64,000 nucleotides of DNA from Xanthomonas albilineans (GTDB lineage: Bacteria; Pseudomonadota; Gammaproteobacteria; Xanthomonadales; Xanthomonadaceae), in NCBI RefSeq assembly GCF_002939705.1, contig NZ_MDCB01000002.1:124001-188000 (forward strand), read 5' to 3'. Positions 9,561-48,997 of the stretch are shown here, piece after piece (position 1 is the stretch's first letter; every line of letters starts with the position of its first letter). A program made the translations under genes and the position numbers. The notes below the pieces were generated by a model. It saw only the letters and a program-made list of their open reading frames with translations, made no database searches and was not told the origin of the DNA.

Positions 9561-9625
9561 GGCCTGACTTGTTCAGGCATTCCTTAGCTCCACTTATGGC
9601 GATTGTTAAAATCGGGGGGATTACC

Positions 9626-9754
9626 CTAACAAAACGTCGCGAGCCGCCGCCAGATGGGTGCAGATGGTACGCAGGAACCGCAGTGTATTCGTGGTATGTG
9701 AGGGTTCTGAGCACCGTACGCGCCCGCCTGGCGGCGGCGCAATAGTTTTGTTAG
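9626..9754. repeat. 129-bp imperfect long-hairpin element (REP/MITE-like)
   Basis: The left arm 9626-9653 begins CTAACAAAAC and ends CCGCCGCCAG. The right arm 9728-9754, reverse-complemented, begins CTAACAAAAC and ends CCGCCGCCAG, with a mismatched middle. About 74 bp separate the arms, and that loop itself contains partly complementary pieces (GGTACGC near 9666 and CCGTACGC near 9716). The shape is that of a non-coding palindromic repeat or miniature inverted-repeat element between the IS debris and virB7. Only one copy is in the window. Confidence 0.5.
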
Positions 9755-41215: not shown

Positions 41216-42001
41216 ATGAGCGACGCTGTTTCGCCGCCGTCGTTCGTGGTCGCCATTCCTGCCCGCTACGCGGCCTCGCGGTTGCCGGGCAAGCCGTTGC
41301 GCGTGCTCGGCGATGAGCCGTTGATCCGGCATGTGGCGCGCCGCGCGCTGGCCGCTGGCGCGCAGCAGGTATGGGTGGCGGCCGACGATGCGCGCATTGC
41401 CGAGGCGGTGGCGGATCTGCACGGCGTGCATGTGGCGGCGACCTCGGCCGAGCACGCCTCGGGCACCGATCGCCTGGCCGAATGCGCCGATATCGCCGGC
41501 TGGGACGATGCGACCCTGGTCGTCAACTTGCAAGGCGACGAGCCGTTCGCGCCTGCCGCAGGCATCGTGGCAGTGGCGCAGGCACTGGCCGACAGTGGCG
41601 CCGAAATGGCGACCCTGGGCACGCCGGTGGACGCGGCCGACCACCTGTTCGATCCGAACGTCGTCAAGTTGGTGCGCAACGCGCAGGGCGACGCGCTGTA
41701 TTTCAGCCGCGCGCCGATTCCCTGGCACCGCGAGGCGTTTACCACTTCCCGCACGCACCTGTCCCTGCCCGGTCCATGGCTGCGTCATATCGGCATCTAC
41801 GCGTATCGCGCCGCTTTCTTGCGCAGGTTTGCGGCGATGTCGCCGGGCCAACTGGAGCAGATCGAATCGTTGGAGCAGTTGCGTGTGCTTGAGGCCGGCT
41901 TCCGTATCGCGGTGGCGTTGTCGCCGGCTCCGTTCCCGCCCGGGGTCGATACCCCGGAAGATCTGGCCCGTGCCGAGGCACGTCTGCAGGCCTTGGCATG
42001 A
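41216..42001 (+). CDS. kdsB: CMP-KDO synthetase
   Basis: This is a 261-residue cytidylyltransferase that activates KDO with CTP for lipopolysaccharide. Signatures are [20 protein letters not shown], the Asp-containing [22 protein letters not shown] and [12 protein letters not shown]. The frame is open upstream to 41057, but the ATG at 41216 sets the family-typical N-terminus. It overlaps the phosphatase gene (ATGA). Confidence 0.95.
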
Positions 42002-42486
42002 AGTTGTTGATGGTCTGTCTGGGCAATATCTGCCGCTCGCCAATGGCCGAAGGCGTGTTGCGTCATCACTTGCAGCACTCGCCACTGGCTGCGCAGGTAC
42101 AGGTGGATTCCGCCGGCACCGGAGATTGGCATCGCGGCGAGCCGCCAGACCCGCGTGCGATCGCTTGTGCCCGTCGCCACGGCGTGGATATTTCGCGGCT
42201 GCGTGCGCGGTCGCTGTGCGATGCCGATTTCGCTGCGTTCGACTGGATCTTGTGCGCCGATGCCAGCAATCTGCAAGACGTGCGTCGGCGCGCGCCGGTC
42301 GCGGCGCGTGCGCAGATGGCGCTGTGGTTGCCTTGGGCCGGAGTCGCTGCAGGTGAGGAAATTCCGGATCCTTACACCGGCAGCAGCGCGCACTTCGAGC
42401 GTGTTTGGCGCTTGGTAGACGAAGCCGCAGTCGGTAGTTTGGCGCGGCTGTTCGTTACCCTCGACTCCGGCATAATTGACCGATGA
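41998..42486 (+). CDS. Low-molecular-weight protein tyrosine phosphatase
   Basis: This is a 162-residue enzyme with the catalytic P-loop [13 protein letters not shown] (Cys7, Arg13) at the N-terminus and the general acid in [14 protein letters not shown]. It is complete. In Gram-negative bacteria such enzymes often regulate polysaccharide-synthesis kinases, but no such kinase is nearby; here it is sandwiched, by 4-bp overlaps, between kdsB and an NHL-repeat gene. Confidence 0.92.
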
Positions 42487-46441: not shown

Positions 46442-46517
<76 letters not shown>

Positions 46518-47588: not shown

Positions 47589-47664
<76 letters not shown>

Positions 47665-48224
47665 ATTTTAGGCCATCGATTCTACAGCCCTCCGAGGCAT
47701 CGCGCTAGCTCTCTTTGCAACGACATGTCGCGGCTATGTCTGCTGGCGTTGGCGAGGATGGTACGTCATTGCGGTGACCTGTCCTCGGCCCTGTGATGCG
47801 GCGATCGTGTTTGCATTGGTTCAGATGGTCGGTTGTCCCGTCGGCGATGGCGATTGGCACGACGTCTCAACGATGGCTGCCCCGGTCCACAGCGTCAGTG
47901 TCGCGTACCCCATTGATTGCGCGCCGTGACCGGGTTATTCAATGGCTGCGTGATGAGTGCTGCATTTGACGCCATGGATGAGCGCGGACTAGTTTTCAAT
48001 TTGCACGCGATCAGGCACGCTAACGTCACTAGGCCAAGATGGCGAACTTGGTGGACGTATTGGACTTGAGATCCGTTTTGTCAAGTTTTCCGAGCTTTTG
48101 CTGTAGATGCAAAAGATCCGGGGTTGACAGTGGTCTGTGAGCATTCAAGATATAGCTTCGTGGCTTGGCAGGAGCCAAGCGTGAGTCAGCAGTGGGAATG
48201 GTGTGCACAAGCGCACCATGTACT
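47665..48224. other. Gene-free spacer upstream of tRNA-Leu
   Basis: About 560 bp with no convincing protein gene. It contains a tRNA-Leu-like relic near 48033-48076 (listed separately). A promoter for tRNA-Leu must lie in the last 100 bp but I cannot place it. Confidence 0.45.
48033..48076 (+). pseudogene. 5'-half relic of a tRNA-Leu-like gene
   Basis: GCCAAGATGGCGAACTTGG, then TGGACGTATTGGACTTGAGA and TCC resemble the 5' half of a class II tRNA-Leu: acceptor strand, D arm with GGTGGACG, and part of an anticodon arm. It aligns well with the 5' exon of the intact tRNA-Leu 190 bp downstream. No T arm or CCA follows, so it cannot make a tRNA. Confidence 0.4.
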
Positions 48225-48535
48225 GCCCGAGTGGTGAAATCGGTAGACACAAGGGACTTAAACAATTTGAGCCTTCGGGTGGAAACGCCCGAAGTGAAGC
48301 CCGTCAAAGTCGGCGAAAGCCCTGGATGCCTTGGTGTCCGAGCCAATGCCGAGCCAAGTCCAGACTCAACGTCTGGGAAGGTGTAGAGAGCAGACGGCGG
48401 GCACCTACGGTCGCAAGGCTATGGTGAAGGCGTGCTCCAGACCACGAACAGCGCATGCGCTGGCGGCGAAAGCCGAAGTGGTAAGAAAATCCCTCGCCGA
48501 AAGGCGTGCCGGTTCGATTCCGGCCTCGGGCACCA
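48225..48535 (+). tRNA. tRNA-Leu (anticodon UAA), interrupted by a group I intron
   Basis: Exon 1 is 48225-48259 and exon 2 is 48486-48535. The acceptor stem GCCCGAG (48225-48231) pairs with CTCGGGC (48525-48531), followed by A and CCA. After removal of the intron the anticodon stem AGGGA (48252-48256) pairs with TCCCT (48490-48494) around loop CTTAAAA, giving UAA. A variable arm CGCC-GAAA-GGCG (48495-48506) and a T arm GCCGG/CCGGC complete a class II leucine tRNA. Without splicing no functional tRNA is possible, because the intron separates anticodon bases 34 and 35. Confidence 0.93.
48260..48485 (+). ncRNA. Group I self-splicing intron in the tRNA-Leu(UAA) anticodon
   Basis: This 226-nt insert begins after U34 of the anticodon and ends in G (48485), the group I rule of U before the 5' site and terminal omega-G. 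CUU at the exon end can pair with GAG at 48269-48271, with U-G at the splice site (P1). Further helices: P2 hairpin CTTCGGG/CCCGAAG (48273-48294); P3 CCGTC (48301-48305) with GACGG (48393-48397); P7 GAGCA (48388-48392) with TGCTC (48433-48437); P8 GCACC with GGTG between them; P9 hairpins, one with a GAAA loop. The R and S core elements GTGTAGAGAGCA and AAGGCGTGCTCC match the group I consensus, and helix order is correct. There is no ORF inside. Confidence 0.92.
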
Positions 48536-48997
48536 ATTTGGAGGCCGCTCCTGTGTCTGCAGGGACGGCTTCTGTTCATCTTCCGTGGTTGCCGCGGCCT
48601 CTTCGAACGCTGTCAGTTGCCGGTCTTCGTCTTCAGGTGGCTCTGCGTTAATCGCGTGCGCACACGTCGTTCAAACTCTGCAGGTGACAAGTCGCCAGAG
48701 GAACAATGCCGGCGAACTGGGTTGTCGAGCATCTCGATTTGTTCGAACGCATCGGTTCTTGCCGTTTCTCCGCTCGGGTAGATCCGGCGCTTGGTCCGTT
48801 ATTTGTGGCTGGGCGCTGCGATGATGCCGGTGGCTGGTGCCGTCTGCTTCGCCGGCCGCACTAGCGGACATGTGTGCTTGGGGGGGGCGTGACGGTAAAC
48901 CGGGGCGGTTCAGTTTTCTCCACGTACTTCCATTGTTGCGAAAGGACTGTGAAAGACTGTCGCTCTAGGCTCTCCATCCACTAGCAGGAGAGTCGAT
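48536..48997. other. Spacer after tRNA-Leu containing IS debris
   Basis: This 460-bp stretch holds the C-terminal remnant of an IS3 OrfB (listed separately) and, at its right end, AGGAG (48986-48990), the ribosome-binding site of the next gene. No other gene is supported. Confidence 0.6.
48613..48810 (-). pseudogene. C-terminal remnant of an IS3-family OrfB
   Basis: On the minus strand the frame reads RIYPSGETARTDAFEQIEML, DNPVRRHCSSGDLSPAEFER, then RTRLTQSHLKTKTGN and TGA (48613-48615). This corresponds to the last part of IS3-group OrfB (RRIY....AR.D.FdYIE.fYNP.RRH....LSPvEFER), similar to the end of the copy at 1240. Only the tail remains. Confidence 0.75.

Follow-up and report, generated by a model that had tools for sequence, protein, structure and literature searches.

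How the anticodon loop of a Xanthomonas tRNA gene came to be interrupted by a group I intron, and why the intron has stayed there, are the questions raised by a locus in a 64,000-nucleotide stretch of a Xanthomonas albilineans contig (NZ_MDCB01000002.1; hereafter, the window). The tRNA-Leu(UAA) introns of cyanobacteria and plastids are small and lack an ORF, as does the intron described here. They occupy the same host gene and the same anticodon-loop site, according to the accessible part of a 2014 review that reports tRNA group I introns in cyanobacteria, alpha- and betaproteobacteria, and plastids (PMC4033280); the present case, which is likened to them by description, differs in its proteobacterial hosts, in the carriage of the gene by a putative mobile element, and in the existence of a sister type in tRNA-Leu(CAA). 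Our reading, to which we assign a probability of roughly 0.87, is that an integrative (conjugative) element, since lost, deposited the window gene as a replacement tRNA-Leu(UAA).

The whole gene occupies positions 48225-48535 (+) and was called as a 311-mer by ARAGORN with introns allowed; the default ARAGORN output does not contain it. The 5′ exon (48225..48259, +), delimited by the same call and by alignment of homologous exons, ends with U34, and the 3′ exon (48486..48535, +) extends from A35 to the CCA end. Between U34 and A35 lies an intron of 226 nt (48260..48485, +) without a long ORF, bounded by ARAGORN and identified by a full-length match to the Rfam model RF00028 (Intron_gpI; 39.8 bits, E 1.2e-8) and by covariation in 126 homologues. 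Because 39.8 bits is under the gathering score of 50, the intron is missing from the default Rfam scan of the window, which returned four plain tRNAs and one match to the Xanthomonas sRNA sX9 (9624-9699, -; 44.8 bits against a gathering score of 44). Since neither ARAGORN with default settings nor Rfam at its gathering cut-off recovers the gene, such genomes may seem to be devoid of tRNA-Leu(UAA). When the intron is excised, the exons form an 85-mer that ARAGORN calls tRNA-Leu(taa), and the 311-nt RNA folds 3.3 sd below 100 dinucleotide shuffles. Scans of 47900-48700 found no promoters or terminators.

The structure of the intron was assessed in a set of 146 homologous introns (220-252 nt) from 148 loci and cassettes, with L261 and L288 left out. 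A G directly precedes the 3′ exon in 146/148, a count to be read with the boundary rule, which requires this base and failed in two loci that end too early. The last base of the 5′ exon is U in 109 and C in 37 of the 146 introns, the C being found in introns of tRNA-Leu(CAA) genes (L123, L124, L144, and the CAA loci); in the window, U34 precedes the 5′ splice site and the terminal G is G48485, as expected of a group I intron, in which a U (or C) paired to a G of the guide sequence stands before that site. Across 126 unique introns, with P1 to P9 and the P3/P7 core in order, 94% of 8408 cells are paired. Changes on both sides of the helix were observed for 8/9 pairs of P2, 6/8 of P5, 4/7 of P6a, and 5/5 of P9a, with pairing far above that of shuffles. 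P1, P3, P6, and P7 are 94-100% paired and, like P4, provide no test of the structure because they are nearly invariant; P4 (98.3% paired vs 98.9% in shuffles) and inner P8 (95.6% vs 96.0%) have no covariation support. In the window, the P2 hairpin CUUCGGGUG-GAAA-CGCCCGAAG maps to 48273..48294 (+). In the structure drawn here, the 5′ strand of P3, CCGUC (48301..48305, +), pairs with GACGG at 48393-48397, and that of P7, GAGCA (48388..48392, +), pairs with UGCUC at 48433-48437, both at 100% in the 126 introns.

A preliminary description of the window had reported a 226-nt insert between U34 and A35, assigned it to group I, and noted a perfect tRNA upon excision. The coordinates proved exact, the boundaries and covarying helices uphold the assignment, and the spliced 85-mer is indeed called as the tRNA. 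The P helices that it listed fared unevenly: P2, along with P9a, covaries, P3 and P7 are paired and too invariant to add weight, and inner P8 gained nothing from covariation. The covariance search that it suggested likewise came out on both sides, with a match over the full length and a score under the gathering cut-off.

In the genome that contains the window (148 contigs, listed as 100% complete), BLAST and a pattern search with up to one mismatch found no second tRNA-Leu(UAA); the other long BLAST match to the window gene is tRNA-Leu(CAA). UUA codons, which are read by tRNA-Leu(UAA) alone, occur 51 times across 25 of the window's 42 long mechanical ORFs, including twice in an ORF that we take to be uvrC and once in an ORF that is presumably pgsA. 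With the split gene as the sole tRNA-Leu(UAA) found, the cell probably depends on splicing, as had been surmised.

Directly upstream of the gene, the remains of a different tRNA gene are recognizable. Positions 47997-48075 match the native tRNA-Leu(UAA) loci of intronless congeners (for example, 81% over 79 bp with G003 and G014): 47997..48032 (+) corresponds to the upstream region of the native intronless gene, and 48033..48075 (+) to its decayed 5′ half, 43 nt long, broken behind the anticodon loop, with 34/43 bases matching the native gene. The adjoining 48076..48224 (+), from the broken half to the replacement tRNA, appears to be a left-end remnant of the element, consisting of arm and spacer; the sequence across the break, 48038-48169, has matches at the left ends of element loci, among them L232 (71% identity over 132 bp, E 4e-12), L273, L236, and L226. 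The decayed half is located about 150 bp upstream of the intron-bearing gene in both the window and the sister genome G012, and the same order, native half followed by intron-bearing tRNA, occurs in G004 and G019, where the half is clean (less decayed). In G018, the native upstream region alone precedes the intron-bearing gene, an arrangement that we read as a later stage.

Presence and absence in related genomes, a comparison proposed in the preliminary description, separates two kinds of gene. Among 20 genomes of the genus, the full intron-bearing gene is found in 5 (G000, G012, G018, G019, and G004, the last of these twice), and 14 encode a nearly identical intronless tRNA-Leu(UAA) of 87 nt, the body of which is unlike that of the intron-bearing gene; G015 carries an intact-looking, diverged tRNA-Leu(UAA) with an 81% match to the native one. 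No counterpart of the native 3′ half was found in the window genome. The window itself retains the left junction and the tRNA, with no integrase, transfer gene, or right junction; a search for transfer-gene remains beside the cassette gave no convincing match. To judge from this layout, the window locus is a domesticated remnant of an element and not a native gene that gained an intron.

In relatives, what appears to be the fresh event can be observed: a host tRNA-Leu gene is cut short after CTTAAAATC or CTCAAAA, and its 5′ half is followed by an element arm and a complete intron-bearing tRNA-Leu. In G768, which belongs to another family, the two halves of the host tRNA-Leu(UAA) gene lie 51.6 kb apart and, when joined, are called as tRNA-Leu(taa); the intron-bearing tRNA begins 162 bp in from the left end, and an integrase gene (Phage_integrase), 77% identical to that of G019, adjoins the right half. 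The genes between the halves include those for TrbI, CagX, TrbL, a TrbE-like ATPase, a T2SSE ATPase, a coupling protein (T4SS-DNA_transf), ParA, and a relaxase, and the repeat common to both ends is CTTAAAATC, which comprises the seven anticodon-loop bases plus two stem bases. With its integrase, att repeats, and transfer genes, the 51.6-kb stretch is, by gene content, an integrative conjugative element. The same genome contains a second intron tRNA, with anticodon CAA, behind a severed tRNA-Leu(CAA) half, as does G077, with a 64% identical integrase. In G768, the two severed halves were the only UAA or CAA motifs matched by a pattern search, and no intact tRNA-Leu(UAA) motif was found beside the severed half in G768, G223, G267, G367, G019, and G004.

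In G019, the native 3′ half is located 58.5 kb further on, adjoined by a tyrosine integrase (Phage_integrase, Arm-DNA-bind_3). This copy is rearranged, given that genes that we take to be chromosomal (prfB, lysS, and neighbours) lie between the halves. Six element stretches of 20 to 60 kb that show a clear left half were searched for the right junction with a strict pattern, and one of them yielded it. Genome G004 also contains a second element-like copy (L004, G004:C1:3195958-3196480), the left side of which has the core GGACTTAAAA and no tRNA 5′ half, as if a chance site had been used once the tRNA gene was taken.

The distribution of the intron extends well beyond the genus. An exact 33-nt intron stretch, searched against GTDB species genomes, matched at least 119 stretches, mostly in beta- and gammaproteobacterial genomes, and the intron is thus not peculiar to Xanthomonas; a 20-nt intron stretch was also present in 6 contigs of a viral collection. 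Among the matches listed are Achromobacter, Cupriavidus, Pseudomonas, Stutzerimonas, Variovorax, Lysobacter, Rhodanobacter, Stenotrophomonas, and others, alongside one Sphingobium and two MAGs, one labelled Mycobacterium and the other Chloroflexi. For 125 fetched loci, the sequence upstream was searched for a host tRNA-Leu 5′ half (score of at least 40; best of 114 shuffles, 22). A half was identified in 42 of the 125, a count in which four loci lacking an exon-1 match were kept as misses and six loci with less than 250 bp upstream could hardly show one. Upstream of the cassette, the distance to the break is 147-253 bp in 41 of the 42 loci and 6 bp in L262. In all 41 loci that can be read at base 34 (31 UAA, 10 CAA; L296 is damaged there), this base of the half is identical to that of the cassette, and two further cases of the CAA type, G077 and the second element of G768, stand outside the 42 loci. 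Across hosts, the 42 broken halves vary and the arm behind them recurs, in the forms TGTTTTGTCAAGTC or CCTTTGTCAAGTC behind UAA halves and in a ATAGGTACTTGTACC-like form behind most CAA halves.

Carriers of the 42 halves comprise Variovorax, Hydrogenophaga, Ottowia, Burkholderia, Caballeronia, Pseudomonas jinjuensis, Stutzerimonas stutzeri KOS6, Azomonas, Lysobacter concretionis, Stenotrophomonas acidaminiphila, Pseudoxanthomonas winnipegensis, Rhodanobacter, and Candidatus Nitrotoga. Where more than 2.5 kb of downstream sequence was available, trb genes were present in 15/25 loci with a half vs 5/58 without. The intron tRNA has no recognizable half in 79 of the 125 loci, among them most of those from Achromobacter, and thus is also an ordinary chromosomal gene. 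As the 125 loci were chosen by intron motif, the frequency of elements without the intron cannot be read from them. A search with core and arm and without the intron as bait matched 5 of 390 genomes of the family (G223, G267, G367, G004, and G019), all five with an intron tRNA behind; the G004 match is the second copy, with no tRNA on its left. This bait-free test rests on the five family hits, since a longer arm pattern matched 0 of 369 genomes in the class. Delivery of the intron-bearing tRNA by an element is well supported.

The window gene also has relatives on plasmids and phages. Matches were found in 1284 plasmid records, in 1266 of these over at least 80% of the query; most of the plasmid matches listed are enterobacterial, with about 68% identity, and end 6 nt into the 3′ exon. 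In two of them (L110:4001-4248, NC_004464.2; L111:3001-3246, LR890662.1), the fragment is near aac(3)-IId. Intron-bearing tRNA-Leu-like genes that match to the 3′ end were detected on a Bradyrhizobium conjugative plasmid (L112:5001-5284), with trb genes about 1 kb away, and on a Mycetohabitans megaplasmid (L113:5001-5342). An uncultured phage of 595 kb (LR756511.1; L114:1501-2285) has a tRNA-Leu-like match in two pieces over 785 bp, and Gordonia phage Daredevil has a match to the intron core without exons at 41865-42006.

The descent of the intron was analyzed in a FastTree phylogeny of 170 introns, from which 8 of the 18 loci L147-L164, unfit for the boundary rule, were left out. The window and G012 introns join an element-borne Lysobacterales intron (L275; support 0.85) in a group of 8 tips (0.79) that also contains further element-borne introns, from Uliginosibacterium (L219) and from two Hydrogenophaga-labelled and unnamed MAGs, and one intron from a Methylomonas without a half; they nest among mostly element-borne introns of other orders. 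The 43-tip group that surrounds the window does not include the G004 and G019 introns, a placement suggestive of two or more arrivals in the genus. The 36 CAA introns all cluster in a single clade (0.976). In BLAST comparisons, the gene of the window shares 92% identity with its counterpart in G717, a member of another family, vs 86-88% with those of G004, G018, and G019. Lateral transfer had been one of two origins offered in the preliminary description, and this placement speaks for it; what that description missed is that the whole tRNA gene moved together with its intron, apparently on an integrative element by which the native gene was broken.

The course of events that we read from these observations begins with steps visible in the sequences of relatives. 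There, an element is inserted at the anticodon loop of a host tRNA-Leu gene, at the core CTTAAAATC or, for the sister type, CTCAAAA, and severs the gene; inside its left end it carries a whole intron-split tRNA-Leu gene with the anticodon of the broken one. The cassette would then be transcribed, the intron would remove itself with a guanosine cofactor, and the spliced tRNA would take over the work of the lost one, reading UUA codons. In the window genome and in G012, the rest of the element has disappeared, with the left junction and the replacement tRNA, the sole tRNA-Leu(UAA) found, staying in place.

Two explanations that dispense with delivery find little support. That the tRNA-Leu(UAA) gene of this lineage was simply inherited with its intron, or gained it by homing into the native gene, is very improbable in our estimate: the gene and site are those of the cyanobacterial introns (PMC4033280, available part), and Leu introns lie in canonical tRNA places in some genera, but the exons in this genus are unlike the native gene, a native half stands beside the window gene at 48033-48075, and the gene is closer to one of another family than to those of three congeners. 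For this genus, vertical inheritance and homing were therefore rejected, since the exons are foreign and the native half is still present. Scarcely credible is the idea of a dead gene, in which the intron does not splice and UUA is read otherwise; the Rfam score under the gathering cut-off could be cited in its favor, but no other tRNA-Leu(UAA) was found, UUA is used in 25/42 long ORFs of the window, the exons yield a perfect tRNA, and the helices of homologues have been kept by compensatory change.

Within the replacement reading, the role of the intron is a separate matter. Were the replacement gene intact, it would itself offer the insertion core, about 200 bp in from the junction. The intron is positioned between CTT and AAAA of CTTAAAATC, which interrupts the core; it splits the core by 226 bp in DNA, and the core would be whole in the spliced RNA. 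We put at slightly better than even the chance that the intron in this way hides the replacement gene from the integrase of its own element and of relatives, that the RNA restores the tRNA, that the host becomes ribozyme-dependent, and that selection for immunity to integration retains the intron. An intron at the break is absent from all 42 broken halves, which is consistent with blocked integration into an intron-split gene. At somewhat under even odds stands a neutral history in which an ordinary intron-bearing tRNA-Leu was taken up as the replacement gene and the intron has no protective part. The 79 of 125 listed loci without a recognizable element junction agree with such a history, as do intron tRNAs in canonical places, for example behind tRNA-Cys (L126, L127, L143) or pgsA (L118), and the intron-motif sampling cannot show how often elements without an intron occur; against it are the intron in 5/5 element left ends of the bait-free search and the single clade of the CAA type, in which the intron was kept despite the changed anticodon and a C for U at the splice site.

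Parts of this scheme have precedents. At an archaeal tRNA-Thr locus, a mobile element left a 5′ tRNA fragment together with an intron-bearing tRNA, and the accessible text of that report, which credits to Randau and Soll the idea that introns shield tRNA genes (PMC3293823, PMC4390854), adds that an intron may also help the integrated element itself (PMC3293823). The resemblance lies in the fragment and the intron-bearing tRNA left after a mobile element; the archaeal case concerns one locus with protein-spliced introns joined to the host gene (PMC3293823, in its available part), whereas here the intron is of the ribozyme type, the tRNA gene is separate and complete, at least 42 loci are involved, and the anticodon is matched to the target. 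The conjugative elements ICEMh1 and ICEPmu1 likewise use the tRNA-Leu anticodon loop (GATTCAAAATC) as the insertion core (PMC6861422); ICEMh1 differs in that its own att sequence serves to restore a functional tRNA gene product at one end, with no intron described in the accessible portion of that paper (PMC6861422). The main text of a further review, as far as it is accessible (PMC3984707), has no words beginning with Proteobacteria or Xanthomonas. Our literature search, which reached few subscription journals, found neither a report of bacterial integrative elements with an intron-bearing replacement tRNA nor a description of a tRNA-Leu(UAA) intron in Xanthomonas; the parts are known, and their combination as proposed here was not found described.

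The putative elements bear on two open questions, namely, why group I introns without homing genes persist in bacterial tRNA genes and whether introns act as shields of tRNA genes. Both become testable here, where insertions are numerous, a second tRNA has its own matched sister type, intact as well as decayed stages are represented, and some carriers are named isolates. The elements would also provide a route by which a mobile element replaces an essential tRNA gene, after which the intron itself becomes essential, as is apparently the case in the window.

The family also contains a second group of introns. Group I introns in tRNA-Ile(CAU) are known from Azoarcus. RF00028 matches were obtained in 39/395 family genomes, and the 30 loci fetched (L056-L085) are all introns of this kind; ARAGORN labels of Arg(ccg), Gln(ctg), and Ser(cga) for such loci were ruled out by reading the exons. 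These introns share RF00028 and the anticodon loop with the tRNA-Leu introns, and differ in the host tRNA, in the site (after U36), and in that none of the 30 loci has a broken half upstream (best score, 19). In the tree they split from the other 140 introns, with a weak support of 0.53, and on both grounds they were rejected as a close source of the Leu intron. One locus of G019 (L022, G019:C1:4428589-4428642 and around) contains an anticodon-CAU tRNA split between U33 and C34, unlike the usual Ile(CAU) site; the 3′ part of its intron is 83% like the tRNA-Leu intron, and no broken half lies upstream. Finally, the window encodes two identical tRNA-Gly(GCC) genes in opposite orientation (46442-46517, +; 47589-47664, -), about 1.1 kb apart around tRNA-Cys, an inverted pair that could permit inversion of the segment.
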